DNA of 64,000 bases from assembly GCA_020152595.1 (NCBI GenBank), contig JAIGNY010001647.1:1834501-1898500 (forward strand). Reading direction: 5' to 3'. A program made the position numbers and the translations under genes. This DNA comes from Chiridota heheva. Its lineage: Eukaryota > Echinodermata > Holothuroidea > Apodida > Chiridotidae. How positions within the stretch are numbered: position 1 is the first letter of the stretch; every line of letters starts with the position of its first letter. Positions 1 to 36,900 of the stretch are shown in pieces. A model generated the notes under the pieces. It saw only the letters and a list, made by a program, of their open reading frames with translations, had not been told where the DNA came from and ran no database searches.

Positions 1-410
1 TGTCATTGCCAGGGATGCCAACATGGCTGGGTATCCAGAAGAAAAGAACACTTTTCCTGCAGAGGGTGGGAGAAAAGAGTTTCCGGAGGAGGAGGTGGCA
101 GGTGAGGTTATCCCATTTAAGATTGAGTAATGAAGTAAGAACAGCCTTTGAGTCAGAGAAAATGGCAAAGTGACTAAGAGGAGAGTACTCAATAAAGTTG
201 AGGGCGAGGAGAATGGCCTTAGCCTCGGCTGAAAAGATGGATGAGTGGTCAGGAAGTCTGCTACTGAGGGTGATGTCTTGGATGATGGCAGCAGCAGCTG
301 TCTTGTTGCCCTCCTTGGAGCCATCAGTATAGATGGAGGTGTAATTTGAGAGTTGGTCTTTGATTTGGTTGTGGAGATTGATGAAGAGATTAGGGTGAGT
401 TTGAGTTTTG
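1..410 (-). pseudogene. LINE ORF2 RNase H domain
   Basis: The minus strand reads IYTDGSKEGNKTAAAA, FSAEAKAILLAL, IFSDSKAVLTSL and WIPSHVGIPGND. These carry the Asp-Glu-Asp-(His)-Asp set of RNase H1-type domains found in I-superfamily LINEs. The frame looks open to the window edge. Confidence 0.85.
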
Positions 411-899
411 TTATAAGTGGAGAGGTCTAGGTGGACAGAAGGAAGGGGGTGGCCCAAGGCGGAAAAGTGGGCCAGGAATAGGTGCCGAGAGTGGCGGGGT
501 TGATGCCAAGTTGAAAGAGGTCTGATTTAATGCGTAAGCTGAAGGGGGCGATAGGGTTTTAGTCCTATCAAAGAGGGAGGAGAAATTGGGGTACCTAATG
601 AGGTTGTAAACAGGGTTCTGGGTGTTGGTGAGGACTCTAAAAGCATAGGAGAGGCTAAGCTTTTTACATCTAAGTAGAAATGGGGGTTCGTTGGCTTCAA
701 CATGAAGGCTAGTGATTGGGAAGGTCCTGTAGGCTCCTAGACAAAGCCTGAGGGCTTCATTTTGGATGGTGTTAATGTGGTTGAGGTATGAGTTGTGAGC
801 GACACAGTAAACAATATTGCCATAGTCAAGCTTGGCACGAATGGTGAGCCTGAAAATTTTGAGGAGAGCATAGCGGTTCGCTCCCCAAGTAGTGTTGGA

Positions 900-2346
900 G
901 AGCAGTCGGAGGATGTTGAGGGAGCTATTGCATTTTAGTTTCAGGTTGGTGATGTGTGGCTTGTAGGTGAGCTTGGGGTCTAGAGTTAGACCAAGGAACT
1001 TTGTGTTTTCAACTTTAGGGATGCGATTCCCATTGAGCACAAAGTTCGGGTTGGGGTGGAGGTTGTTGAAATGACAAAAGTGCATGCAGACTGTCTTGTC
1101 TTTGGAGAATCTAAAACCGTTATTGTTGCTCCAGACTTGCAGCTGATTGAGGCTGGTTTGGAGCCTATTTTCAACAATAGGAAAGCTAGGGGAGGAGTAG
1201 AAGATGGTGAAGTCATCCACGTAGAGGGTACGTTTGATGCTGGGGCCAAGGTCATTCCCGATGTCATTAATGCTCAGGTTGAAGAGAGTGGGGAGAGGAT
1301 GCTGCCTTGGGGAACGCCCTCTTCTTGGGGTACGGCTTGGAGAGGGTGTGGCCAATCTGAACTTGGAACTGCCTGGGTGAGAGGAAGTTTTGAATAAAGA
1401 TGGGGAGGTGGCCTCTGAGGCCAATGGTGTGAAGTTTCCGGGTAATGCCGTAATTCCAAGTAGTGCGAAAGCTTTCTCGAGGTCAAAAAATATGGCAATG
1501 AGGTGTTCCTTTTTGCAAAGGATTCCCGGATAGCGGTGTCGAGCGTAATTAACTGGTCTAGGTATTGCGACGTTTTTGGAAGCCGCTTTGGTGAGGAGAG
1601 AGGATTCTGTTGGTCTCGAGGAACCAGTTTAGTCTCTGATTAATGATCTTTTCCATAATTTTACAGAGACAGCAAGTAAGGGCGATGGGTCGGTAGCTGG
1701 TGGGGTCGGTGCTATCCTTCCCGGTTTAAGGACGGGGAATGACAATAGCTGTCCTCCAGATAGGGGGAAAGGAGTGTGAGGACCAAATGTGGTTGAAGAT
1801 GGTGAGTAGGGTAGTGGTGGCCTTGATGGGGAGGTGTTTCAGAAACTGATAGGGGATGTTATCTGGGCCCTTGGAGGTGCAGCCAGCGTCGCTGATGGCT
1901 TGGTTTAATTCAGAAAGGGTGAGAGGGGTGTTGTAGCTTTCGGAGTTGTCAGAGGGAAAAGTGATTCTTCGGGCTTCATCGCAAGCTTTTTTGATTTTGA
2001 AAGCATTGGAGTAGTTGGTCGAGGACGAGATGTTGCTGAAAGAGGCGGCGAGGTGGTCAACGATGTCTTTTTTTGCGGTGAGAAGGTCTCCATTCCAAGA
2101 GAGATGGGAGATGGAAGATTTGCCTACTCTGCCGTGGAAGCTGTTAACCATTCTCCAAATCTTCTTAGTGGGGGTGTTGGTGGTGAGAGAAGAGATAAAG
2201 TTGTTCCAAGTGTTGGTTTTACTGTCCTTGATAGTGCGTCTGGCCTTGCACGGCTGATCGAAAGAGGTTAAGGTTATGGGTGGTCGGGTTAGTTTTAAAG
2301 TTCCTGAGGGCTCTTTTCCTGTTCTTGATGGCGGTTTTGCAGTCAT
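900..2346 (-). pseudogene. LINE ORF2 reverse transcriptase, frameshifted
   Basis: Fragments in different frames give KGPDNIPYQFLKHLP (fingers), a broken palm segment near 1420-1500, and YVDDFTIFYSS with the catalytic Asp pair at 1223-1212. The thumb region continues to about 411 (LGLTLDPKLTYKPHI, LDYGNIVY). At least three frame changes separate these blocks. Confidence 0.82.
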
Positions 2347-3230
2347 CTGAGAACCAGGGGTTGGGGATGATTTGGGGGTTTGGAGGTTTTGGGAATTGAG
2401 CAGGTGGCGATGTTGATAAGGATATTACTGAAGTTAGACATGGGATCCTCATCCTCGAGAAGATGGGGGAGGTGTGAGTCACAGAGGGTTTCAAAAAGGG
2501 ACCAGTCAGCCTTGTCGAGGTTCCAATTGGGGGTGTGCTCAGTGGGGATTTGAAGATTAGAGTGTATAAGAAGAGGGTAATGATCACTACCACAGAGGTC
2601 AGCAGTGACTCTCCAACTAAAATCAGGGAGGATAGGGGAACAGATAGACAGGTCAATACAGGTGAGAGAGCCTGTGGCAGGATGAAGGTAGGTCGGGGAG
2701 TTAGTGTTCAGTAAGGACAGGCTGTGCTGACGGAGAGCGTTTTCGATGAACTTGCCTCTAGGGGTGGTGGTATTAGACCCCCACAGAGGGTTGTGAGCGT
2801 TGAAGTCACCAAGAAGGATGAAGGGGGTGGGAAGCTGAGAGATGAGGTTGTTAAGGCTGGTTGGTTGAATGTTGGTGTTGGGAGGGAGATAGATATTGCA
2901 AAGAGTGAAAGTTTTGTGGAGGGAGATAGAAATACAGATGGCCTGAAGGTCGGTGTGCACAAGAACAGGGCTGTGTGGGATATCGTGTCTAACGAGAATG
3001 GAGACGCCACCACAGGCCCTGTCAGCATCCACTTGATGTTTGTGATAGCAAGCAAAGTTGTTAAGGGAGTAATGGTCGGTGGTTTTCAAGAAAGTTTCTT
3101 GTAGGCAGAAGACGACCGGGTTGAAGGTGGAGGCCAGAAGGTCGATTTCTTCAGAATTGGCCTTAAGGCTCCTAATGTTCCATTGTATGATGTTGTGGGT
3201 GTTATTGTAATTGTTTGTGGTGTATGCCAT
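2343..3230 (-). pseudogene. LINE ORF2 endonuclease (EEP/APE family)
   Basis: An open stretch of 295 codons with IIQWNIRSL, LQETFL, a GGVSILVR block, LLGDFNAHNPLWGS and GSDHYPL. These are the N, E, D/N and DH residues of the exonuclease-endonuclease-phosphatase fold that nicks target DNA for target-primed reverse transcription. The domain itself is intact; the frame is lost after it. Confidence 0.85.
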
Positions 3231-3244
3231 AAAGCAGGCGGGGT

Positions 3245-4650
3245 TATCTGGAGGAAGATCTGCTGGGTCTGAGTTCGCTTGTTTTTTCTTTGGATCTGTT
3301 TCTTTGGGAGCGATTGTTTTTGAAAATTGGACGAGAAGTATGATCGGTGTGTTGTGTCGAACAATCCATACTCTCTTCAGTGTGGGTTTGGGAGGTGGGT
3401 TGTTTGTTGATTGGTTGTTTGTTGATTGGTTGTTTGTTGATTGGTTGTTTGTTGATTGGTTGTTTGTTGATTGGTTGTTTTTGGTTGGTTGTTTGTTGGT
3501 TGATTTGTTGGTTTGTTGGTTGTTTGCTTGGCTGGTTTTAGCTTGATGTATGAAGGTATTAGTGGAGTTGGTGTAGGGGCGGTAGGGGCTTTAGAGTAGG
3601 AAGGGGGTTGAGGAGAGAAGTGGTGGTGGAGGTGGTGTGGGTATTGGGTGTGATTGGGTTGTTGGAAATGGTGATGGGCTTAGGACTAGGTAAGAAGAGC
3701 CAGGTGAGGTCGGTTTGGGCATGGGAGTTAGTTTTTGTTGTGTTAGTTGTGTTTGGGGCGGAATTAGAGTTAGAGGAGACTACGTTTGAGTAGGAAGGCT
3801 TGGAGTTAAGGGAAGCGAGGAATTGTTTCCTGGCCTCAGGGTAGGTTATGTTGGGGTTAAGGGTTTTAAGTTTTGTTATTTGTTTTTCCTGAAGCCAGGT
3901 GGGACAGTCTTTCGAGAAGGAGGGATGGTTTGCTGGGTGTTTACCGTCACAATTTGTGCAGAGTGGGGTTGGTGCAGGAGGTGTTGTCATGGTCGGGGCT
4001 CCGCAGTTACCACAGCGCGCTTGGCTGTGGCAGGAGTTTTTCCCGTGGCCATACCTCTGACAATTATAGCAACGTAAAGGGTTAGGAATGTAAGGGGCGA
4101 CCTGGATTCTCAGGTAGCCGGCAATGATGTGGGAGGAGAGTTGGTGTGGCGAAGGTGAGAAATATGGTGTTGGTGGGAGTTTCGGCTCCGTCTCTCTTTA
4201 GAACGAGGCAGCGGGCTTGGTTACATGTTGGTTAGCTAGTTCTTCTTGGAGGTCGTCATCGGTCATTTACGCAAGATCGCGGGTGCGTATGCGCCTTTGC
4301 TGGAGTTTAGGGAGCGATGGGGGTGACTGTGATGTCGATACCAGAGTTGGATAGGGTTTTGGTGGAAAGGAGGGTGGTGGCTTGTGTGTCCCTGGTGCAG
4401 TGCACCAGGAGATCACCGGATCTAAGGGTAGAGACTTTGGGAGGGTACCGACAAGGCCAAAGAGGGCTTTATGGATGAGGAAAGGAGAAACTTTTTTAAA
4501 GCTTTCCTGCTTGTTGGTGGCATGGATTATAAGGATTTTGGGGATTGGGGTTGCAGAATGGTCAATGATGGTAGCAGGTGGGTCACGGGGAGGGGAGGGG
4601 GGTCAAGGTCAAGGTCACTGCATAGGCGCTTTGTCATTATGAAAGAAAAA
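3245..4650 (-). pseudogene. LINE ORF1 (gag-like, CCHC zinc knuckles)
   Basis: Around 4090-3890 the minus strand encodes RCYNCQRYGHGKNSC, then ARCGNCGAP and CTNCDGKHPANHPSFSKDC: three knuckle-type metal-binding clusters typical of I/Jockey ORF1 RNA-binding proteins. Downstream comes an Asn/Ser/Thr-rich linker with five NNQST repeats (3474-3400). The upstream part (4650-4100) is broken into several frames. Confidence 0.72.
3400..3474 (+). repeat. 15-bp tandem repeat inside LINE ORF1
   Basis: Five exact copies of TTGTTTGTTGATTGG, followed by degenerate copies to about 3540. Read on the minus strand the unit is in frame and gives NNQST pentapeptides in the ORF1 linker. Confidence 0.95.
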
Positions 4651-5038: not shown

Positions 5039-5197
5039 TTTCATGGATTCCTTTTCCTAATACTTTTTTGATGTAATCTCCATGCTTGTTCAGACATCTC
5101 TGTAGCGCCCTCTCTCGTGAACCCTTACTATGAAGGCAGCGGTTCACCTGTTCCAAGGAGTCAAAGTCTTTGACCAACCACCATCCATGTTGCAATT
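5039..5197 (-). CDS. BAZ2: BAZ2 exon: WHIM3 / D-TOX-like motif
   Basis: A 159-bp exon, phase 1 to 1, with acceptor TTCCAACTGTAG and donor GTAAGC. Joined to the previous exon it reads PIPKELQHGWWLVKDFDSLE and continues with LHSKGSRERALQRCLNKH. This matches the vertebrate BAZ2B block PIPEEMQFGWWRI, LHLRGIREKALQKQIQKH. It is the last BAZ2 exon in the window. The intron upstream is 7.8 kb and has taken in two LINEs. Confidence 0.95.
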
Positions 5198-8100
5198 CTA
5201 CAGTTGGAAAACCAGAGTTTAAAGATTTCATTTCATGATCATTTCTTTCCACATTATGCAATATATACTAAAATAGTGATAAAAAACACAACAAAAGTAA
5301 AGTACATTCAAATTTTGAATATAACAAATAACATAAGTTTCTGGCCTTGTTACCAATAATAATACATTGCAATGGAAAAGGAGAGAGAAAAAAGTTAAAA
5401 ACTTATTATATAAATATCCCCAAAACTTACATGTAAATTAAATTTCAACAAAAACAACAGTAAAATTTAATTGTTACTCATTATACTAATGATGGAACTA
5501 AACAACATAAACATATAACAAAAATATGTCAATTTTTATGTATGTCTCTATATATACGTCCATAATTTCACATTTATAATTATTTTTAAAGATCCTTTCA
5601 CTACTACATTGTTTCAGCTTATCCTTCAGCGAATCCCATAGCTTAACTCCATAGATAGAAATACACATTGGTTGTAAGGAAGTACAGGTAAAAACATGTT
5701 TAAAATTGTCATTTGTCTATTAAAATAATAATTATTCCCTTCACAATTACATAAACTTTGCAGATTTGGTGGCAAAGACCTTCTCTTTGCTCTTAACATT
5801 ATTATAGCAGTCTTATAATCAAACAAATTTTTTTAGTTTGAAGGCATGCAAATCAATAAACAACTTATTAGTATGTTTATTATACCTGGTATTGTTAACT
5901 ATTCTTATTGCTTTCTTTTGCAACACATAAATTGGATGGACATTTGATATAACCGTATTACCCCAAACATCGGCGCAGTAATTATTATAAGGAAATACAA
6001 GTGAACTATATAGTAATTTCATAGATTCCGTTTCTAATATGTCTTTGATCCTATACATTATTGCAATACTTTTGGCCATTTCAGATTTTACTATCTTAGT
6101 ATGATCCTTCCAATGTAAACCACTATCAATTATTACGCCCAAACTTTTTGTTGAATACACTCTCTCAATAACGTGGTTATCTATACTTAGTATAATAATA
6201 ATGTGACATTGCCTATTAAAAAAATAACATGAAATTCGTCATGCTAATATTTAAAGATAATTTGTTCACCAAAAACCACACTTTTAATTTTTTTAAGTAT
6301 TACAAACACTCTAACACAAACTGTCAATATCACTGTCTAAACTAAATATTAGTGTCATCTGCAAACAGTACAAATTTAACAACGTTTGAGATATTACATA
6401 TGTCATTAATGTATAATATAAGTAATTTTGGTCCTAAAATAGACCCTTGGGAAACACCACATTTAACATTTAACAAATCAGAAGAGCAATCATCTATTTG
6501 ATCAAATTGTTGCCAATCTGTGAGATAACTTAATACCCAATCATTTACAACCCCTCTCATACCATAAAAATATAATTGCTTGGTAAGATGAACATGATTA
6601 TTAGTATCAAAAGCCTTCTTCAAGTCTATAAAGACACCAATAGTACAGTATGCTTCTTCCCATCAAGGGCAGAGGTTATTTCCTCAATCAATTCCATAAG
6701 AGCCAAAGCTGTAGACCTCTCTGTTCAAAGCCATACTGGCTGTTTACTAACAGATCATGTTTATCAATAAAACTACCTAGAGTTTTATTTTTAAATAACT
6801 TTTCTAATATTTTGGAGAACTGTGAAAGAATTGAGACAGGTCTATAATTAGTATAAATATCCTTATCCCCTGATCAATGGTTTCCTTGGGATATTCTTGC
6901 TGGAATGCAACCACCTTTATTTAGATTACATCCTTGGATAAGAATGTTTTTCAATGCTTAAGGGTATACCGCTAGGAGGTTATTTTTTAAGAGGAAAGTA
7001 CATTATATTCTGAGCAGAACAATTTTAAATGGGTCGCAAATGGGTCACAGCACTTATAGTTTTCAAGTTATGACAAATAACAAATATAACTTTGTACATA
7101 TTTTCAGCATGTACAAATATAATGATGTATGAACAGAATCAGCTAAAATTCTTGAATGTAATATAAAATGCTGAAAAAGGTCAATCTTTAACTAAATTTT
7201 GCTGGAACTTTCTGCTATTTACAAGATTTTTAGCACATTTTCAACTATTTCAGCTGGTGCTGTTGTTGTCTAGTCTTCAACATGGCTGATCAAGCATTTG
7301 ATCATGGTATGTATGTTACAGATGTAAGATATCTTAAGATTTGAGGGGGAGGGGGGTTCATAATTTTCTTTAAATATGTTTATTGAGGCTCTAATCTCAT
7401 GTTAAATTGAATTTCAAAAAATATCACAGCACAATATAACAATGCAATCTATTTGCACAAGAAACTGAAGCAGTCTTACATAAATTTCAAAGGACTGAAT
7501 GATTTTCTTGATGACAATTTGTTGTAATGATCAGTATTTAAATTCTTTGAATCAAATTTCTTTTTTAACAAAATCTAGGGATAATCAGCATTTATACTCC
7601 AATCTTTATTTTGTAGTTGAATATATTACATCATACAAAATAATAGCAAGTCACTGAAATATTCAAAATATCTTTGTATTAAAATCAATTATGCATCTGA
7701 AAGATGACCCCTTCTTTACACTTGACGATCTCACAATTGCTCATCTCACAGAAAAACGTCGCTGGAAATCACAGGCTGCTGACCTTTTTAGTCAAGGGAT
7801 ACGATTGCACTTTTCATCTGGGAAATGGCGTAGTCAGAATGGTATCCTATACACATTCCAAGAATACCAACTCTAGAAGTTGAACATAACTAAGTCTCGA
7901 TAAAGGATATGATTTCCTTTTTTTCTCTCTTTTGATCGGGCCATTAGATTAGAGGGGACGTTAGAAAATGTTTTTTAATTATCATTATTTTTTTTTTTTT
8001 TAAAATATTTTTTTATATTTTTTTCTCTATAATTCTTAATATGGATTTTCAGGTAACACTGTATTTTTTCTTTTCTTTTACCTCCCAAGCAATGTACTCC

Positions 8101-11100: not shown

Positions 11101-14100
11101 GGATATCTCAATTACCCGGTCCCCCAACTAAATTTATTCAGGAACTCAATAGTATTCTTTATAATTTAATTTGGTATGGCAAGCCGGATAAGATTAAACG
11201 TTCAGTTCTTGTAAACAATAGATGCCATGGTGGTTTGATTGTTTGAAATATCTTCTTATATTAAAAGCTTCAAGTCCTCCTGGGTCAAGTCTTATTGTAA
11301 TGATAATGTCTCTTATTGGAAATTCATCTGTAGACATTTAACTAAGATTCTTTGATGGTAAATTTCTTTTTCAATGTAACTCCCATAGAGATGATATTTC
11401 TGGTATTTCAAATATGTTCATTAGGAAATGTGTTGGGCGTGGGCTGATTTGAATTTCGTTAAGCCTAATAATTGTTACAGCAATCAAGTTATTCTTAACA
11501 AGTCTTTTCTTAAAATTGATAACCCAACTTTTCTTTGACTATACTTTATATAATGCTAATCCATATCATGTAAAAGATTTTTTTAATGCTGATGGCTCAC
11601 CTGTATTTTTTTGTAGTTTCGTCATGAGATTTAATATTACCACTTTTACTTTCTATTTTGGAATTTTGTCTGCGGTCCCCTCTCATTGGCATTTCAACAT
11701 GAATGCTTATCCCATTTCCCCAAATTTCATATGCTTTGTGCTCTGAAGTTTCAAAATTTGTTTATAATGTCTTCATTGATACAAAATATTATTTCTCCCT
11801 CTGCGATAGAACATTAGTTTCATAATGATAACTTTCATGAGATTAATTGTAAAAATGTTGTTTCTCTACCATTTTACGCAGTAAAAAATACCAAGTTGCA
11901 ATAATTCCAATTTCATTTTCTTTTTAGAATTATAGGGGTCAATAGTTATTTAAAACGTTTAAAGATTAGCTACAGCTCTCTTTGTACTTTTTGTGGCACG
12001 CAAGATGAATATTTAGATCATCTTTTTTGGGGTTGCCATTATGTTAATGTTTTTTTGGAATGAAATTGCTAATTGTGTTTACAAAATAAATTCACTTTTT
12101 CACTTGAAACTATTTAATTTAGTGTTTTTGACAATTTACACCATCGCATCAACTTTTTTATTCTTCATGCAAAATATTTTACATTTACTTGTAAAGTTAA
12201 TGGTATTCTGCCTGACAAAACATCCTTTTATCATAGATTTTAAAGTGACTTAAAATTGAATTTTTATTTAAGAAAAAAATCATATGTATAATCAGTTAAA
12301 TTTATGAAAGGAGTTTTTAAAGTCGGGAATTATTAATTTATCAATTTTATATAATTATCTTTATGCCCTCTCTATCAGTGCTATTGCTTTTTCCTTGTCC
12401 CTCAGTCTGTTTATCTTCAATTGTCATTATGTGGAAATATATATTAGATATCTTAGATTATAAAGGAGTTTTTTTGTTCAGTTCTTCATGTATATATTAT
12501 ATAACAATATATACAACCTTCAAATTATTACTATATCATCAATATTCTAATGAAATGTAGCAATAAGATTAGGTTCATTTCTTATTCATTGTAATCAATG
12601 CAACTTTAATTTTTAATAATAATTTTCATTCTGCTTTACCAATTAGAAGAACATCTGGTAATTTATCCGTTACTTTGAATTTTTGTCAAGGACATTCTCG
12701 AATTTTTCAACTTTTAAAACACTATTCTGTAAATATACCTTTTATTTGCTGTATGAATTTTTTTTTTTATCTTCTGTAATGATCAATTAACTACAATACA
12801 AACTATACTACCACAAACAGGCAATGCTGCTGATCAGATAGATTCCTGTTATAAACAATGCCAACTGTTAACTTTAAGATACACAGTCAAATATCAAAGC
12901 TTTCCTATGGGTGTGACATTCCATTGTGCGATTTGTATGAAAAACTGTCACTGGACATACCTGCGCATGAATGATTTAATACAGTAGTACCTACTTGATA
13001 AACAGAAACATACATTTTACGATAGACTGACCTTTGGGAATAGGCTCCACTTTGGCATTTTCTATCTGGTCGAGCATGGCTTTGAGATGAGCAAGTCCCT
13101 GCCTCTCAGCAGCATCCTCTTGCTCTTCTCGTTGTTGCTCAACAGCCTGCATATCCATAGATGTCTGCATCTGAATTAGCTGCGAATGGTCTGGTTGTGC
13201 TTGCTGCTGTGACACTACAGGGGCCTGCGGTAAGAGTGGCTGCTCGATTGGTCCATTCAAAAGGGACATGTTCGGCATCGGAAGATGGGGCATTCCAGGC
13301 AATGGGTATGCACCAAAATAAGGACTGAGTTGGTTTACTGGCATGAAGGGGAAAGCCATTGGGTACATGTATGGGTTGAAAGCAAAGGCAGGGAAATGAT
13401 TTGCATCTTTCATATGAGGTGATAATGCAGGGCTTGCTGCTTGTAACAGTGATGTTTCATCACAAGGAGTCCTTGGAAGAATACTAAACCAATTACTAGT
13501 GATTATGGCACCATTTTGCTTGGTATCACCCCCTTTGTTCATCTGATCCCCATAAAAGAGGGATGTCCTGGAGGAGATACAATAACAGACTGGACATTTG
13601 GTCTAGCAAGAATATCGTCCAATTGGAAGCTATTTCTAGAGACAGAGGATTTTGAAGTAGAAATGTCTTTCTTAGATGTAGACAAGTCTACAGGTCCATT
13701 CGTTTTATCATGTTCATTCTCCTTTGGTATTTTATCCTTGGATTCTGCCTTTTCATCTCCACTTGGATTCTGCTTAGAACACGTTTTCATGGACAAGTCC
13801 TGAGGCTCATCTTGTGACAAATTTAATACTGTATTTTCTTGAGGAGTAACCTTTAAGACAGCTGATACAGGAACCTCGCTTGTTTCTTCCTTTTGTGAAT
13901 CCAAATGTGGCACTGAATCCTTTGCATCCATCTCAACATCCAGCGGTACTTTATCTACTGAGCTGGATTTTAATTCTAGGTGGGAATCTTTATCTACATC
14001 CTGAATATCAGGGTTTTCATGCAAGTGGGATAAGGAAGCAATGTGTGAGTTAGATTGTGGATTTGTTTCAGAGTCTTTATTACAATCTCTACTTCCTACA

Positions 14101-17100
14101 GGAAACAGCTCACTCAAATTTACAAGAGACTGTGGAGTTTGTAAGAAAAGGTTTTCTTTGGTTTGGGGTGTGGTTTCAGAACTCTCTTCCATTTTTATTG
14201 CATCTTCCCTCTGGACAGCTTCAGTTTCTTTCTTGCTTTCAGTAATATCAACATCCATCATAGTTGTTTCAGTTGGCAAGCTTTCAGACTTAGAATTAAA
14301 TACGGAAGAAGATGGCTGAATATCCTTACACAAAATATCTTCTGAATCGGGCTTTGGTATACTTTCCAAATCTTTCATTTCGGAATCAGTAACCTTAGTT
14401 TTAATCTCATCTCCTTCTGCTTTATTATCCTGACCGTTATCATTTACTTCAGTTTTAGTTTCTTCTTCTTTTTCCTGTTTCACAATTTCCTCCTCAGACT
14501 TGCACACGTCTTCCTTCTGTTTGACAACATCCTTTTCCTCTTCGAAAATACTTTCTTCCTTCTTCTCAATCTCTTCCTCTTTTACCAAACTTTCCTGCTT
14601 GACAATATCCTCTTCTTTAAAACTATCCCCCTCTAGCTTAACAATGTCCTCCTCCTTTGTGACACTCTCCCCTTCTTCTTTGACAATTTCTTCCTCTTGC
14701 TTAAAACCATCTGCCTCTTGCTTTACAGCATCGTTTTCCTTTTTGATAGCATCCTCTGTCTTAACATCATCCGTCCCATCCTTCGTTTCCGTCTTAATTG
14801 CAAGCTTGTCCTCCTCCTCCTTCTTCACATTTTCACAATCATTCTCAATCTTTTCAGATACTTGCTCCTTCTTACCGAACAACATTGTATGAGATCTGTC
14901 CTCTGTTGGCTTTTCAGGTAAGACTGAGCTCTCCATACCCTCAACAAACATTCCACCCAAGTTCTGAAGAACCCAATATCTTCTATGGAATCTGTCTTTT
15001 CCAAAAGTGATGGACCGCAAAGGTTGCATCGCTTCAAAAATTCGATTTCGGAATTGGCCATGTTGCTGTGAAAATAATTCAATAACATATATTAGTTCTG
15101 TGACTGTATTTACCTCCCTTTATAAGCAACATTTTCAGTGAATAATTTTTGTTCATCCCTTACACCATACTTTATCATTTTTAAAATCAGGACATATCAA
15201 ATGAAGCTTTATTCTGAAGTATACCTCAATATTTTATAATGCTTAATGGAAAAGACGAACATTACTATCTTCAATTTGATCACGCTTTTAATATTGTTAT
15301 CTGAAATGCTTATGGAATAAAAAAACAACACTACTTCATACAAAAAAAGCAATACAGTGAAACCATTTCCATCAAAGCAGAAAACGAAAAAAAAATCAAA
15401 AATTTAAGTCTAAAATTATAATTTAAAAGATCTCAAATATGGGCAACATTTCCATATCTGCCAAATTTTGACACACTGATAAGAACTGATAAATAGATCT
15501 CAAATATTGGCAACATTTCCATATCTGCCAAATTTTGACATACTGATAAGAACTGATAAATAGCTATTGTAGTTCACTAGCCAGGTTCTACACACAATAC
15601 TGATCTCCAAGAAACGTTAGCTGGGTTAATGAATTCAGTGATAAATTCTTTGCAAAACATTATAGTTATTCAACTCTTTTATTTTACTACAATATTATAA
15701 AAAGTTTCCTCGCAATAATTGCAAGTTTGCATCTGGCACGAAGAATACAGTAGCGTCAAATAGCTTCAACATTGTAGAGGATTAAAATCTGCCAATTACT
15801 TCAACCTTAATTTGACAAAAGTTTGTTTTTAAACAAATGTAAAGGATTCTTGTGTTGAAATACTGATACACTGACAGAAATATCCATGACAAAAAAACAT
15901 TTCAACATTCATAGTTCATGATCCCATATTTTCCAGTGTGCCTCGAAAAACAAAGCAAACTGCAGATAGGCTGACTTCTTCATTTCTTAAAAAAAACAAA
16001 CATCGATTGATAAAACTATCTTACTTTGGTGAGTTTCTCAATTTTCTTTTGTGCATCTTCAGCAGTCATCCCTGAGGCATTAGATTTGGTCTCTTCAGCA
16101 TCATCATCGATCCTCTCATCTCCACCTACTCCTTCTACTCCTACTCCTCCTCCACCCTCTTCATCCTCCTCCTCACTCCCAACGTCTTCAGCATCCTCCT
16201 CCTTGTCCTCCAATTCCTCCTCCTCTTCTCCTTTGTCTTCACCCCTGGGTGTACCGACAGGTGTGTTCTCTGCAAGATACAAGTCAGGCATTCCTTTATA
16301 CCCACCCTACAGAGACCCTTTTATTAAAGTGTTTATTTTAAGCTTAGTTGACTTTATTGTTAGGCTCACCATTAACAAAAACAAAACATGAACCAACAAA
16401 AATAAGTGTTTAGGTCGAGTAAGGGTGATACATTCATTTAAAAACTGACTGCATAAATTATTTAAAAAATAGAACTGCAGTGTCATTACAAATTTTCGTT
16501 TGGTGGTTTAAACCCATCTCTCAACATTATTCATCTCATTTTGCCATTTTATTAACCACAATTAATGTGTTACCTTATATAAAATAAAAATGAAAGCGAA
16601 ACAATCTGAATGAAATATCTCTTAAAAACTTAGCATGAGTATGCAATGCAACCACTGCATGTTTCCTTCATGCTATAATCACTTCCAAATAAAAACATAG
16701 AAATTTTACTTATGCAAAGAATAATTTTTGTGGATACAACAGATAATAGAGAGTTAAGCTGTCATGTCATGGTTTGTATCACAAAGTATTTTCAAGTTGA
16801 TATAATAATTGATTCATCCTTAAAACTACCAAATTTACAAGCAAAGGAATTCATAGCAATGACTACTTTTTCCACATTATTTTCTCAATATAAAACTTTC
16901 CTTTCTCAAAATGCTCATCTAAAGACCAATTAATAAAGGTAGAAACAGCTCTCACTTAGAATATTTAATACGGGCTTAAAACCCTGAAAACAGCCCAAAA
17001 GTTCAATCCATTCGAGCCATCAGGCTCATAGAGCCGGTGCTGATCCCTGGTTTCAAAAGCGCAAGCGGATGGGAGTACATCATGACTCCCCTGACAGTAC

Positions 17101-20100
17101 ACCAGTCCATCGCAGATTAACTCCCCAGCAGTGCTGGTACTCATTTTACAGCTGAGTGGACTGAAGCAAGTAAAGTGCCTTGCTGAAGGACACAATGCAG
17201 TGCTCAAGGCAGGAATGGAACCTGGTACCTTTCCAATACGAGCATGACTCTAACCACTAAGCCACTGCACCTCTTAAAAAGCTAAATCCATTCAAACAGC
17301 CAAACCACTAATCATTGATTTGAAAATCAGCAATTAACAACCATTAATGAATTTTTACTCAATATTCTTACAAAGTCAATTTGTAATGTCTAGTAAAATG
17401 TATGATCACGGATCACCTTTGTTACCATTATCTATGAAACTGAAACAACAAAACATCTTTGACTTCCTCTTTTGTTAAATAACCAGATGGTGAAAAGACT
17501 TGAATTCCAAAAATTACCAAAGCTTTCATCAAATGCTGCACGCTTTGGAGGTCTTCCCCTCTTTCTTTTGACTGGAGAACTACCTGGTGTGCCTGTATTG
17601 GACGATGATGATTTCAGTCTGTGAAAGAAACATTTATTCAAAAATGTGTCTGCACCCTGGAACTAACAACTTACTTTTACATTCTCAGGACATTCTTCTT
17701 AAAAAATAAGATGTATAATTTGACTGCAGGTCATCATTAACAACAGATGATTTGGTTTATTAAGGCAAGACAACCCTACAATATAAACCTGTCATCAACA
17801 TACAAGTAACTCTAAGTAATTTCAGGTGACATATAAAGGGATCAAAATTTCCATGCTTGTTTTATTAAATCAAGAGTGCTAAAGGATAAATAAAATAAAG
17901 AATGAAATATATCATCAACAAATCCAGGACAACACTGGGAAACATTTGATATTTTTGATGGGATTTCTATATTAATCTTATCTAGTTTAATCATTTAGTG
18001 CTTGACTAACAACAAATCTTAGCTTACAATTACTTACTTTCTTAATTTGCCTTCAACAATCCATTTGTCCCTCCTCAAGCCAGAGACTTTGTCCGAGGTT
18101 TCATCTATTTGCTGCAAGACTGGATCACTACAAACCAACTGGTTGATCAGGAATCCCAGCAGTGCTGCTTTGTGGGTAGCATTCAGGGCCTTGAATGGAA
18201 CCAATGCTAACATTTCTGAGAGCTGAAAATTAATTGCAAAAATTAAATGTAAAAAATAAAGAAAACACAATGATAAAGTAGAAGTATTAAAACTTAGTTA
18301 AAACTATTTCAAGACTTCTTTTTTTTTCACAGCAAAGCTGTTGATAAGTTACTTCCTGTTTTTCAAATGTAAGAAAAACAATTGCTGAAAATATTTCAAT
18401 ACACATTATGAGAAAATATGCCCTTAGAGAAAAAAGGGCACTTTGGAAAATACACATGATAAAAGAATCTGTTCTTGGAGAATAAAGAGCACTTTGGAAA
18501 GTACACATGATGAGAGAATATGCTCTTGGAGAATAAAGAGCACTTTGGAAAATACATGATGAATAGAAAGAAGAGCAGAAAATCTGACAAGAGAATCTGC
18601 TCTTGTAGAATAAAGAGCACTTTGGAAAATACACATGATGAGAGAATCTGCCCTTGTAGAATAAAGAGCACTTTGGAAAATACACATGATGAGAGAATCT
18701 GTTCTTGTAGAATAAAGGGCACTTTGGAAAATACACATGATAAAAGAATCTGCCCTTGTAGAATAAAGAGCACTTTGGAAAATACACATGATGAGAGAAT
18801 CTGCCCTTGTAGAATAAAGAGCACTTTGGAAAATACACATGATGAGAGAACCTGTTCTTGTAGAATAAAGAGCACTTTGGAAAATACACATGATAAAAGA
18901 ATCTGCCCTTGTAGAAAAAAGAGCACTTTGGAAAATACACATGATAAAAGAATCTGCTCTTGTAGAATAAAAAGCACTTTGGAAAATACACATGATGAGA
19001 GAATCTGTTCTTGGAGAATAAAGAGCACTTTAGAAAATACACATGATAAAAGAATCTGCCCTTGTAGAAAAAAGAGCACTTTGGAAAATACACAAAGAGA
19101 ATCTGCCCTGAAGAAAAAAAAGAACAATTTGGAACATTTTTTGAACTGTGACGACAACAAACCACTCTCATGGTATCTGGTTTAAAAATCATTAACTCAT
19201 TTTACTTTTCTTTGTCTGGTTTTCTGCTTGTAGGGAAATCGATCCAATTCATCTTTTAATGACTTTCATAAAAAGCAGATGATTTTATATCATTAAGTTC
19301 AAGAAAAAATCGAGAAAAAAAATCTCACACATTTTAAACCTCATTATTTATAAAAGCAAAGTAGCAAAAGAAAACACATCAATATGATATTGACACAGAA
19401 AGGGAAAAATAAAGACAATAATGACAAACCTCGTCCTCTTTCCCATTGACACCAAGAAGATAATAGCGCATGACCTCTGACATATTATCCTGATTGACAG
19501 GCAGCTCATGCATCTTCTGATTGATGATACTCTTTATCTGAGAATTTTGACAGAAAAACATTTCAATAATAAATATTCAAGAAAGTAAAAACAAGGTGTG
19601 GACCCACTATAGAGAGTGGGGTCCACACAATACCAAGGCCCTTTACCCCAAAATTGATGACCATAAACTAACTATAAATATAACACACTTTCTATTATTT
19701 CTATTAAAGGTTCTAAATATTAACTGCCTTTGCCTTTATAGTACATGTTCTGTATTAAATTATTTCTGGTGAGAAGAGACCAAACTCGTATTGTTTTGTC
19801 TGAGGTCTAAAATGCTCTCCGTTTGTCAATGATACTGCCTAATATTGAAATTACACTTCATTACCAAGTTGCCCAATATCAAACTAAACATTGTGCTACA
19901 CAAATTTTGTCATACCTTTGGTCCATCATCTGGAAATCCTGGATCGGCAAGGGCCATGGTGAAGAGCTGCATGGTAAGGCGCATAAATGCTTTTTCATGC
20001 TGCCTCTCCCCCATAAGGCCACCCTGAAGAACAGCTAAGGTGGGAACATCTTCTTGTAAATCTTTAAAAATAAGAAGGCATTTCAATCATTGTAATTTAG

Positions 20101-23100
20101 CAGAAGGATTTTACCAGATAATATCAACAGATGTTTTAAAACACAATGGGGAAAAAGCATAAAAGCCCCACAAGCTACAAGCCCTTCTCCAACCAATACT
20201 CTAAATTGTTGAGGATCCAAAGATCAGGAAATGGAGGCATGAATCCCATCTTAAGCAAACTTAAAGTACTTAAGTAATTCCACACTTTACTTTAAGAAAC
20301 TCATCTGAAAAGTTAAAAATAATTCTTTTTTATATTTTGTCAAAATAAACACAAAAGATTTCTACAAACTATGCATTTCTTCACTTTCAAACATCTGCAA
20401 AATCAAACGAAAATCTAAAACAAACTTATGGTTTTAAAAGGAAAAGTTAACAAATCATCCTCCCCTTGTTAATATTTTCCCTCCTACTGGGGAAATAATA
20501 TTAGACTTTAATCAGGGACATAAATATGGCATTACTCTGTTCGGCTGCAAAGTATCTTAACCTAAAATCACACAGAAGTGTTTGAAATAAAAACGTTTGC
20601 CAGGGCTTGACATATTTTAAGAGAGCCTTGCATGGAAATAGAACAATAAGCTGTGAAAGTCCAACAGAAGTCTTGTTAGATACATCTCTTGATCATTCAA
20701 AATTGGTTTGACCAATGGAACATGTACTCACCAAATCCTAAAGCTTCGCCAAAGTTGTGAAGAAATTCCAGGACCATCAAACTGTCAGCAAGTGCTTTGC
20801 CAGAGAGACGTATCCCTGTCAGTCGTGGCAGCTCTGGTAGTGGCTGTTTAACAGAATGAATAAATATTTGACTTTTATTTTGAAATGAATCAATAGCACA
20901 AATTTCATCAAATAATTATGTGAATTTTTAAATAAGTAAACTGGGGTTTATTGATTTCTACTCCAGGGGATGGGACAATGTAATGGCTTAACGAGGGCCA
21001 GCAAAAGTGAAAAAAAAATATAGAGAAAATGTCAAAATCATCATAATATCCTATATTTTAAAGTATCGTCTTCAAAGGGATCGAAAGGCCAATAATTTTA
21101 GTTTTTAGCCTAAAATTCCAAATGCCTCGCAAAAGAAGGTCCATAACAAACCTCAACAATTCCTGTCGCCATGGCGATGAAAACTTAAATCTTGGCAACC
21201 AAAAAAATGAAAAATAATGACTTTTTCGCCAGTGAAATAACGTTTTAAGTTTCACCTAGCGACTAAAATAAAAGTTTGTTTGAGTAAGAAATGAAGTGAA
21301 AATATTTCGGTGGCATAAAATACCTTCATTCTTCTGTTCTTTACTTCCCCAAAATTACTGGCTGTTCTAATCACGAATTTCTACGCTGTAACTTTGTCCC
21401 CAAAAGCCCCACGGCACTGATACATTTTAAGTATGATATCATACTGCTGAGCAACAGCATCATACTGACGTTAGCAAGTTAGCTCACGTAATACATGCAG
21501 AGAGGTACCTGAAAAAAATTCTGATCATTTTCCTGATGGAAAAATGATCATATTGTTTGCTTTAAAATCAGTTTGTTTGTTTGATGAGGGCTTAACGGCA
21601 CCACAACAAGGAGGGTCAAATTGTGCCTGAGAGGTCAGATCATTCTAAAGGTAGGGAAGGAAAGGAAACAGAAAGAGAATGAAAGAAATTCAAGAACCAA
21701 AGGTCAGAAAGCTGTGATCGAGAGGGGAGGTGCATGGTTGAAATAAAAACAAAGTAGAGAGGGGGTGGAAGAGGAGAATTAAATATGGTTGTAGAGGAAG
21801 CATGATGAAGAAAGGAGATAATTTTATCTGGAGGATTTTTCTGGAAGAACTCAGCAATTGAGTTGTGGGGAGCGAGGGAAGCTCTGGGAAGGTTGTACAG
21901 GGGGCAAGCAAGGAGATCAATCTTGACTTTTGAACAATTCATTTCAACAATTGCTTTGTGCATTTTTGAAATTAGAAAGAGTTGTCATTTAAGTATGAAG
22001 TCAAATTATTCATGCAGACAAACCGTCAGGGGAAGAAGGGCTTTTTCCATTCAAAATAATAATCTGAAACAGTCTTTATTTTGTACTGTGAGTAACTTAA
22101 CTATTTTGGCGATCAAAATTTTGGAAATGAGGAAATATGGTCGCCAGTTTTTTCTCTGAGTTGGCAACCACAAAGCAAACGCATTTGTCGAGGGTTGTCC
22201 ATAACTCAACCAGAAAAGGGTCCAACATTACTCTCCAAACCTCTGTCCATTACATCAAATATTCTTATAAACTGCAAGAACTGCAACTTCACTAAATCTT
22301 CAACATGCTAAACACCTGACTTTATTGCAAAACCTATTTCAATTTTTTAAGACAGCAAGACCAAAGTAACAAAACACATTCCTGTACGAACAATTCAATT
22401 ACCTATCTTAAAACAAACAAACCAAAAAGTTGCTTGTGAGATTATCTGCCTTTCACTTTTTCGTGGAGTGCAATTTTCAAATATACCATTAAACTTGTAA
22501 GTACCCAACAGCACTTTTCCTAGCTCCAGATGCACTTGTTAATAACCATATAGCTTACCCTGGATTCCCTGGTGAGCTTCATGTCCTCCACTGGCTTCTT
22601 GAGTTCCCTCGTCAGCTGCATCTCTAGCTGGCGATGCTGAAGCTTCTTCTCCCTATGCATGTCTTTCTCTGCCTGCTTCTCCTGGCGCAACCGAGATCTC
22701 TCCTAAGAAAGCAATGCTAAACTTAACATAGAGCTAGACACACCTTGGACATTCTGCACAGACATCACAATTCATCTCATCATTTGTGTTATCTGATCAC
22801 TAAGCTATGTTTTTACTCACTGAAAAACAATAAGAAGCACCTTCTCTCCCAGAAATTTTTAAACTTACAGGATACAAATGCTATATCTACTTATGTAAAA
22901 CTGTGTTTTTATTATTAAACAATAATTATATTCTTTTCAATACATACAACCCCAAAAATATTTTGCTAGTTGGAAATTTGAAAACTGAATAATAACATGA
23001 GTAGTAACAAGAAACATTCAAATTAATAGTACAATCATTTTCTAACCAGCAACAAAAAGCTGTGCAGCAAACTGTACCAGACTTTGAAGTTGTACCTTGA

Positions 23101-33900: not shown

Positions 33901-36900
33901 GTTTGCCCCCCACTTACTTATGCAGGTTTTGTTGCTAGGCAAATTCGTGCAGTGATTGGTTAAAACAAGCTGTCAATTATTAAACCCAGAGAGGTTAATT
34001 ACATTCAAGGGACAACCCTGTATTTGTCATATATAACTCCACTCTCCTTGCCAAAAGCACACATCACTAGACCAAACAAACTAGGCCGAAGAAAACCAAA
34101 TTGATCAACAATTTGCAAATGATTCAAACTTCAAGCTTCCCACTTTTCGATCAAAGAATTACACGCATTCTTTTATTAAATAAGTAATCATGCACAAGAA
34201 TCAGAGTAAATCTTCCTCTTTGCATCTCCCAAAGAAACAGACTTGTTTATTCACCTTGTTGTTCAATCCTCTTTCTAAACTTGGATTCCGCAGCCCTCCT
34301 AGCTAGTTCGTGAGCGATCCTCTTCTTCTCTGCAACCTTATGCCACCTGCCACGACTCCTTCTTCCCGTCAACCTCTCATCCAACTCGTCCTCAGTCAGC
34401 TTCTCAAAAATAATGCCCTGAATAAAATTATGATACATGCCAATCAAAACTATGTGTTATATGACACAGTCGAAAGCAATAAGGACATCTCTTAACAAAC
34501 AATATTTCAAAGTACAAGCAGCAATTATTCTTGAAAAAATGCTCTCAGAATTGTCTTTTCATCTTGTTTACTTTCAGTCAAAGAATGTTTTGAATAAGTT
34601 TTATCATATAGTTTCACTTTCAACCAAACCTATATCTCATTTGAATAGATATCACTCTTTCAGAAAAGTAAATTAAAACCTTAATCAGTATTATTAACCT
34701 GCCATAATGCAACTTACGTGTTCCCCATCCTGCTTTGGCACAAGAAACTCTCCAATCCGCATCTTGACACTGAAGCTGAAGTGCTCTCTCCCCACATCAC
34801 CCATTCCACGTCGTTCTATATACCGCATCACCTCTGGGTAAGTCCTCAGCTTCTTTCCGCATGGAGCGTAGTAGATTACATCCCCTTTGATGCGATCTCC
34901 TGGCCCCAGCTGACGGACGATAATCTGCCTCCTCCACCCATGGACGAGAGGTTTACGGACCGCTCTTTCATCCGTGACATGAAGCCGTTTCTTCTTTGCA
35001 GCTGCAATAACAAGTAATTAAAATAACTTTTGAAGTTCATCTTGCTTTACTGCTGGACAAATCCAAATATCACCCATTATGTACACAATAATGGTTTTGA
35101 ATATTTGTATGAGAGTTAAGAAAAGTATCAATAACTACTATGGACAACTTTGAACAAATGGACAACTTTGAACAGGTTCCAGTATATGAGCAAGTTCGAG
35201 TATCAGACTTTGCACTATTCCTCAACCCTTCAGATTTAAAATCATGTCCATTAAAGATTAACTGCTTAAATTTAAAGCAAACTGCGCTACACCAAACACT
35301 TTAATATCTTTAGTGAAACAACTAGAAATATTGTTAGGATTGCATACAAAATTTGATATGATAGCTTGAGTTCATGCATCACCATATATTCTCTGTTTTC
35401 TGATTATGTTTAGGATTTGACTTACGCATTAGCACCATTGGTAACCTCATGTCGCCATCTGCCTTGCGCTTCAAGGTGAATCTAATAGGGGTGACTGCAG
35501 CTGCACTTGCAGCTTCTGCATTGGGAGGGAGCATCATGTTTGGCATAAACCCTATATCCCCATTAGGCAACAACCTCTCTTCTGCGATAGGAGTCCCAAA
35601 TTCTGAATACACTAAAAACAACAAAAAGTTTCCAAAAGTTTTACAAATCTCTTATGACACAATGATAGACCGAACCATATGTGTTAAGTCAGCTAAAACC
35701 ATTTCATTCTGAGAAAGACATTTTTCTACTGGTTCACTTTAAAATTTTGGATCAATATGTCTGGTGTTCTAATAGGTGAAACTGAACCTATTAGCTTGTA
35801 AAATGACCAGTGAACTTCCTGTCATAAACCATCAACTTCCTGAACATTTCATACAATCTACTGATATTCTTTTTTCACACAACAATCAACACATACTTCA
35901 TATGCATTAATTTGTTTACATAGATTATTTCCACAAAACTGATAGCAAAACTTGTAGAACTTTTATTCAAAACTTATTTATCCTGGAATTACTTATTTCC
36001 AGTCATTTAACATTAATCAATGTGTACAGGTTGACGGAATATGAGCAAAATACTCGCCATACCAGAATGAAACAATGACTAAACAAATCAGGTATGGGTT
36101 TACCAAAGCCACCAGGAGCTAATGTTCATTCAAATATTTATGTCATTACAAGGTTGTGCACCAAAACTTAAAAGCAATGTATCTTTTGCCCCAACTCTCC
36201 ACCTGACAAGTTTGCAATTTTTTTCAGTTATGATTGTTTTTCCTTTGAGTAGGAAGATAATAATAAAACACTCAAGAGTATTGGAAAGGGTGAGGAGAAG
36301 AAGAAGTATGATAAGTATGACAAAAACATATTGATTGAGAATCTTGACTAACGTCAAGTAGAGTACACAAGGAGAAACAGATTCATGTTATGCAAGTTTA
36401 GGTCAAGCCAATGAAAGCCAACTAAAACGTTACCTTCCTATCTAGACGAAAAAACAACACGCAACCCACCTTGTGCATACTCCTCTGGATGCGGTCCACT
36501 GTCATCACTCTCTTTGTCCATTCTCATTCCATTCACCATCTCCATCCCGTCTGGGCTCGTACTTCCCTTTTCAAGTACTAATGATCTCAAGTGGTGGTCA
36601 GATAGGGACACACCAGACCTCAATGAATATTCGTTCTGCGGGAGGGAGTAAACAAATCAGAGATTCGACAGAGACATGTCTTATGTTCAGTAGGATTATG
36701 TGATTGATATGTTTGGGAAAAACAACAGCCTAAGAGCAATGATGACAAATCCGCCCGTACCCAATACTGTCCCCGTGACAAGTGAATCTTATTTAGCACT
36801 TAATGGAAATATAATCAAATTTTGACGATTGATGATCACACATGCGAGGGAAAAGAACAAAAATTACAAAGATGATTCCTCTAAATAAATGACAAAATCT

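Follow-up and report, generated by a model that had tools for sequence, protein, structure and literature searches.

A psi-K-x-E (SUMO consensus) motif array in the WSD linker of BAZ2 from the sea cucumber Chiridota heheva

Partners of ISWI remodellers use their DDT-WHIM region to contact both the remodeller and linker DNA. In vertebrates, BAZ2B and BAZ2A (TIP5) combine an MBD, a DDT domain, a WSD domain that is matched in two stretches, a PHD finger and a bromodomain (as in Lepus BAZ2B), and the gene described here has the same layout. The negatively charged SUMO motif consists of psi-K-x-E with acidic residues after it. In human data given in passages of PMC13213312, SUMO-unique sites show an enrichment of about 9-fold for VKxE and likewise for IKxE, and about 55% of SUMO-unique lysines are in disordered regions versus a background of 32.2%; the same paper stresses that a protein is not made a SUMO substrate by the motif alone. 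In a paper on Baz2B biochemistry (PMC10783490) the word SUMO does not occur in the main text, and no report of SUMO on BAZ2 linkers was found among the open-licence papers listed; human BAZ2A and BAZ2B sites may well stand in supplementary site tables. The window, that is, the whole 64,000-nucleotide stretch of C. heheva DNA that was analyzed (assembly of 1.10 Gb in 3744 contigs), contains a BAZ2 gene with an array of such motifs between the two parts of its WSD domain.

Judged by its domains and its position in the phylogenetic tree, the array-bearing gene is BAZ2 of an eleutherozoan echinoderm, in agreement with the BAZ2 assignment of the initial annotation. Exon candidates, chosen by eye on the minus strand, start at about 51.7 kb in the window and extend past its left end, and the resulting protein is a hand-joined, incomplete exon model. 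It includes open frames with an MBD/TAM exon (34697..35017, minus strand; PF01429, E 2.2e-21), with a DDT exon (20700..20915, minus strand; PF02791, E 1.9e-6, 28.3 bits at a cut-off of 22), and with an acidic exon (16019..16306, minus strand) that precedes the linker exon and ends in KIEKLTK at a gtaaga donor. The array lies in an open frame of 526 codons (13539-15119, minus strand). The linker exon itself (13539..15065, minus strand), the 3' end of which is uncertain, follows the acceptor ttttcacag before CAA and joins KIEKLTK to QHGQFR; the Acanthaster protein reads on in the same way, with KMERLSKQHGQFR at this place. A frame shift in BAZ2 was observed at window positions 13560-13602, between QSVIVSPPG and NGAIITSNWFSILPRTPCD; inspection by eye showed no good intron there, and the shift reflects either a sequencing indel or an unusual splice.

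Two separate stretches match the Pfam WSD profile of 69 positions. The first half (2-33, E 3.5e-7) is found just before the array at 14892..15017 on the minus strand, and the second half (35-68, E 6.1e-5; 23.6 bits alone, below the whole-domain cut-off of 25.4) in a later exon at 5082..5183 on the same strand, which bears out the earlier placing of the array between WHIM2 and WHIM3. In all four orthologues tested WSD is likewise matched as two stretches, the best of which covers only profile 2-33 or 2-32. The linker, flanked by the two parts, is therefore an insertion in one domain. WHIM1 was unmatched at E 0.01 in the hand-joined, incomplete window model and was matched in 4/4 orthologues, in three of them over the cut-off. 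The PHD and bromodomain exons lie to the left of the window and match BAZ2B in the PDB (PHD, 3.8e-23; bromodomain, 9.1e-37); the top PDB row for these exons, polybromo-1 with 6.6e-39, is a sum over four stretches.

The maximum-likelihood tree of 18 proteins places the window gene inside the clade of five echinoderm rows with support of 100/100 and next to Acanthaster plus Amphiura with support of 91/91, which is under the level marked as strong, the window row being 43% filled, of unusual make-up and on a longer end branch than those of other echinoderms. The gene thus comes from an eleutherozoan, by inference an echinoid or a holothurian. No sea urchin or sea cucumber BAZ2 was named among the matches listed, that is, 36 rows, the best 120 of 2032 (in a search that took in proteins up to about 2273 aa) and the best 120 of 1012. 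By position, the BAZ2 introns also contain a 51-bp minisatellite (window 18398-19109; 3.1 and 10.3 copies with 85 and 91% matches), which carries long open frames on both strands, and open frames at 1-4200 and 5822-6873 (minus strand) that resemble, by eye, retroelement reverse transcriptase and endonuclease.

The SUMO-motif array in this linker is real. Minus-strand translation of 14472..14828 gives 119 residues with exactly the twelve psi-K-x-E motifs listed in the initial annotation, whose coordinates are right: VKKE, IKTE, VKTE, IKKE, VKQE, FKQE, VKEE, VKLE, FKEE, VKQE, VKEE and VKQE, at residues 98, 108, 119, 125, 132, 139, 146, 160, 167, 173, 179 and 213 of the open frame. The thirteenth motif on that list, IKME, lies at residue 308 (14187..14198, minus strand), upstream of NLFLQ. 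The plus-strand reading of 14472-14828 is interrupted by a stop, the coding strand being the minus one. Successive motifs are 10, 11, 6, 7, 7, 7, 14, 7, 6, 6, 34 and 95 residues apart; the spacing of six to seven residues that had been described from about residue 95 onwards holds for residues 119-179, where one unit is broken (SVTKEED), and fails elsewhere (10, 11, 14, 34, 95). All 13 motifs of the window have at least one D or E within six residues after the motif E; the pattern [psi]KxExx[DE] is present three times in the array, a count reached by 830 of 3000 dipeptide shuffles. Antisense to the array runs a Ser-rich open frame of 152 codons (window 14434-14892, plus strand), probably a shadow of the E and K codons.

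We counted psi-K-x-E in orthologous linkers, taken from the end of WHIM2 to the WFSILPR-type sequence, with psi being V, I, L, M or F in the shuffle tests. Of 25 proteins taken, 24 were counted; Cyprideis, whose WHIM2 end was missed by the pattern, was left out, and its linker shows IKKE, VKKE and MKKE ahead of WFFLLPR. For lack of an end, a fixed length of 300 aa was taken for the linkers of Saccoglossus and Polypedilum, both Saccoglossus motifs preceding WFSILPQ. The motif was found in 23/24 BAZ2 proteins with the window and in 22/23 orthologues without it, and 21 of these 23 orthologue linkers have from 1 to 5 copies. Among echinoderms, 13 motifs were counted in the window, five each in Amphiura and Anneissia, four in Antedon, three in Patiria and none in Acanthaster. 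Arthropods have nine (spider), five (Danaus) and four (Polypedilum), Lingula three, Branchiostoma lanceolatum three, B. floridae two, and three hemichordates two each; in vertebrates, there are two in BAZ2A of Salmo, one in BAZ2A of Monodelphis and one in each of seven BAZ2B proteins. The window linker is the most expanded among the BAZ2 proteins counted, at the extreme of a widespread BAZ2 feature.

Taken individually, 15/24 linkers have p < 0.05 by residue shuffle and 11/24 by dipeptide shuffle. The nine that are non-significant alone by residue shuffle are all seven vertebrate BAZ2B (p 0.27-0.41), Monodelphis BAZ2A and Acanthaster; by dipeptide shuffle they number 13/24. Together, the 14 species counted without the window hold 46 motifs, where residue shuffling predicts 9.2 (combined P 6e-14), this subset (15 named, 14 counted), like the 24 proteins, having been hand-picked among 227 fetched, many of them isoforms. 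In the same 14 species, 46/340 lysines of the linker are inside a motif versus 38/2287 in the rest of the same proteins (odds ratio 9.3, P 1e-20). Across the BAZ2 family, it is thus this linker that is enriched. The possibility raised at the outset, that orthologues keep the acidity and not the psi-Lys-x-Glu spacing, proved half right: the motif is kept in nearly all orthologues, while the spacing differs from the 6-7 residues of the window, and the Acanthaster linker is acidic (0.23) without any motif, having VRME where Patiria has VKME. The motif is therefore not essential in every species.

In vertebrates, a single site is strictly conserved. IKEE or VKEE is kept, in the same linker and upstream of NLFLQ, in 156/156 fetched proteins holding NLFLQKPGSFSKLS, the presence of which was required of vertebrate rows. 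The single IKEE attributed to BAZ2B in the initial annotation thus stands as the main site, whereas 80/156 proteins also have a second motif starting with L. These proteins yield 50 distinct linker starts, which are related rows (their names include many birds and reptiles) and not 50 independent trials; psi is I in 48 and V in 2, and K and E are present in all 50. From alignment column 19 to column 71, no other column is fully invariant. The window IKME occupies a similar place ahead of NLFLQ and is the counterpart of this site by order along the linker, not by alignment. The linker motif NLFLQTPQSLVNLSEL (14106..14153, minus strand) is common to hemichordates, amphioxus, vertebrate BAZ2B and Lingula and is missing in the other five echinoderms examined; NLFLQ is absent from these five and from both BAZ2A proteins examined. 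The KKEV unit is doubled ([VL]KKEVKKE) in two B. lanceolatum proteins and single in six other Branchiostoma proteins examined, so copies have been gained or lost. If the linker does accept SUMO, the BAZ2B IKEE, unbroken in the 50 vertebrate linkers compared, is a specific testable SUMO site.

Several features of the linker would also suit a charged spacer, whose acidity is retained for solubility or to contact histones or nucleosomes, and in which psi-K-x-E is a by-product of a composition rich in E, K, V and I. The 119-residue segment contains 33 E, 12 D and 23 K; in several orthologues, a motif-rich linker is an acidic one as well, and the motif-free linker of Acanthaster shares this acidity. 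However, residue shuffles of the segment give a mean of 1.41 motifs and a maximum of 7, with 12 reached in 0/20000, and dipeptide-keeping shuffles, which retain all VK, IK and FK pairs, give a mean of 5.83 and a maximum of 11, with 12 reached in 0/3000; when D is permitted beside E at the last motif position, 3/3000 dipeptide shuffles reach 12. Neither composition nor hydrophobic-lysine pairs therefore account for the array, and the concern of the initial annotation that shuffled linkers might reach twelve motifs is removed. Similarly, the reversed motif [DE]xK[psi] is present in one copy in the array (shuffle mean 1.88) and in 14 copies versus 46 forward ones in the 14 species, the three hemichordate linkers have their two motifs each at only 11-14% acidic residues (p 0.009-0.032 by residue and 0.038-0.115 by dipeptide shuffle), and the vertebrate K and E are invariant within a drifting stretch. 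A charged spacer is thus an unlikely explanation. Lysines of the linker could instead be targets of acetylation or of ubiquitin, or could form salt bridges with E along a single charged helix, and a single-sequence AlphaFold model of the loop does consist of long helices; its confidence is low (mean pLDDT 56), too weak to support either helix or disorder. Nevertheless, E/K pairing in a helix requires neither a hydrophobic residue before K nor a fixed E at +2. In the human data, motifs of Ub-unique sites are only weakly enriched (1.1-1.6-fold, in passages of PMC13213312). Such roles for the lysines appear improbable.

A passive coding repeat, in which a VKQEExx-like unit was multiplied by slippage and has no function of its own, would be consistent with the beat of residues 119-179 and with the short unit gained or lost within Branchiostoma. 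The initial annotation likewise described an expanded 21-bp coding repeat, which we reject: Tandem Repeats Finder (minimum score 30) detected no DNA tandem repeat at 13500-15200, and synonymous codons are randomised between units. In particular, the DNA identity of adjacent units is 51.5% versus 52.2% after codon shuffling among identical amino acids (17 units, P = 0.73). A repeat search did find seven look-alike copies of 26 nt, six of them 73-77% identical to the seventh (reference copy); since the synonymous shuffle leaves the units just as similar in DNA, these look-alikes are accounted for by the protein, and any expansion is old. Such a case warns that motifs in an array can outlast the likeness of their DNA copies, and that DNA repeat finders then miss them. 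Across the 17 units, whose register was set by eye on the motif (a choice that favours K and E), K is retained in 15 (AAG 8, AAA 7) and E in 16 (GAG 9, GAA 7). The entropy is 2.37 bits at x (six residues), 1.74 at psi, 0.64 at K and 0.32 at E, x thus varying more than psi, K or E; unit positions 5-7 (2.5-2.7 bits) are as varied as x. Because the register was chosen on the motif, K/E retention, and with it the interpretation of unit variation as the degeneracy of the SUMO consensus, is supporting evidence only. We regard a passive repeat as very improbable.

Two further motifs of the linker resemble PxDLS, the docking motif for CtBP: PQDLSMK (13785..13805, minus strand) and PVDLSTSK (13671..13694, minus strand), the latter as NGPxDLS also in the brittle star. 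Two such candidates are found in the window linker versus 0.03 expected (P 0.0005), and one each in the linkers of Amphiura, Acanthaster and Patiria (P 0.02-0.03 each), with a loose pattern, P.[DN]L[ST], that was chosen after seeing the sequence and that also matched the bromodomain (PMDLS) in 5/23 proteins; the motif is absent from the other 12 of 16 linkers examined, including both crinoid ones. CtBP-like PLNLS, PVNLS or PFNLS were observed in the N-terminal region of BAZ2 from crinoids, vertebrates and insects, and a CtBP link may therefore predate the linker motifs.

The above analysis suggests, with a probability of about 0.6, that the BAZ2 linker within WSD is a conserved SUMO acceptor which in C. 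heheva would carry several SUMOs and form a multivalent platform on the BAZ2-ISWI remodeller. Since relatives have fewer copies in the same loop, the linker has the look of a conserved region for SUMO attachment, greatly expanded here. Accepting SUMO would be the conserved job of the linker between the WHIM2 and WHIM3 halves, with 13 consensus sites in the window protein, along which Ubc9 would most likely conjugate several SUMOs in vivo. The modified linker could then recruit SIM-containing (SUMO-binding) corepressors to BAZ2-ISWI through multivalent readers. Because the DDT-WHIM region makes the contacts to the remodeller and linker DNA, tags in the linker could act on this engagement, and SUMOs may tune how DDT and WSD engage ISWI and linker DNA. 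In eleutherozoans, another corepressor may be contacted through the CtBP-type PxDLS motif of this linker. If so, this would be a route for SUMO control of an ISWI remodeller. More tentatively, bilaterian BAZ2 proteins may share a dedicated SUMO-docking loop in WSD, a tunable dial of 0 to 13 sites set by gain and loss of short units, which would link ISWI remodelling and silencing to SUMO and, in eleutherozoans, to CtBP.

As regards SUMO itself, an exon at C3363 of this genome presumably encodes a SUMO2/3-like protein. The candidate at C3559 was rejected, its frame not being SUMO; we take it to resemble the SUMO-like domain of NFATC2IP type. Many head-to-tail Rad60-SLD matches at G000:C2520:352472-357881 look like a polyubiquitin gene. 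A SUMO-interacting motif within BAZ2 itself was set aside, since a loose pattern for it gives 0-7 matches per protein (23 proteins), several of them inside folded domains.

Among transcription factors, SUMO synergy-control motifs are copies of I/VKxE that act together in repression and are flanked by prolines. The array resembles them in sequence but lacks proline throughout its 119 residues. According to passages of the review PMC8304685, ZEB2 (SIP1) combines SUMO sites with PLDLS, a CtBP motif, on one repressor, SUMO has been proposed to disrupt its recruitment of CtBP, and work cited there found CtBP dispensable at one target; ZEB2 is an unrelated protein with two plus three reported sites (PMC8304685), and the likeness is one of analogy only. 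In crinoids and in the brittle star Amphiura, the first WSD half of BAZ2 is soon followed by 4-5 psi-K-x-E, for example in IKAEVKMEVKLE; these linkers have fewer sites than the window protein and another spacing (four residues in Amphiura), the two crinoid linkers also being without PxDLS. Vertebrate BAZ2B and BAZ2A, finally, have one or two sites versus 13 in C. heheva, and if the linker accepts SUMO, the family would provide a natural dose series, from 0 to 13 sites, for the effect of multivalent SUMO on chromatin.
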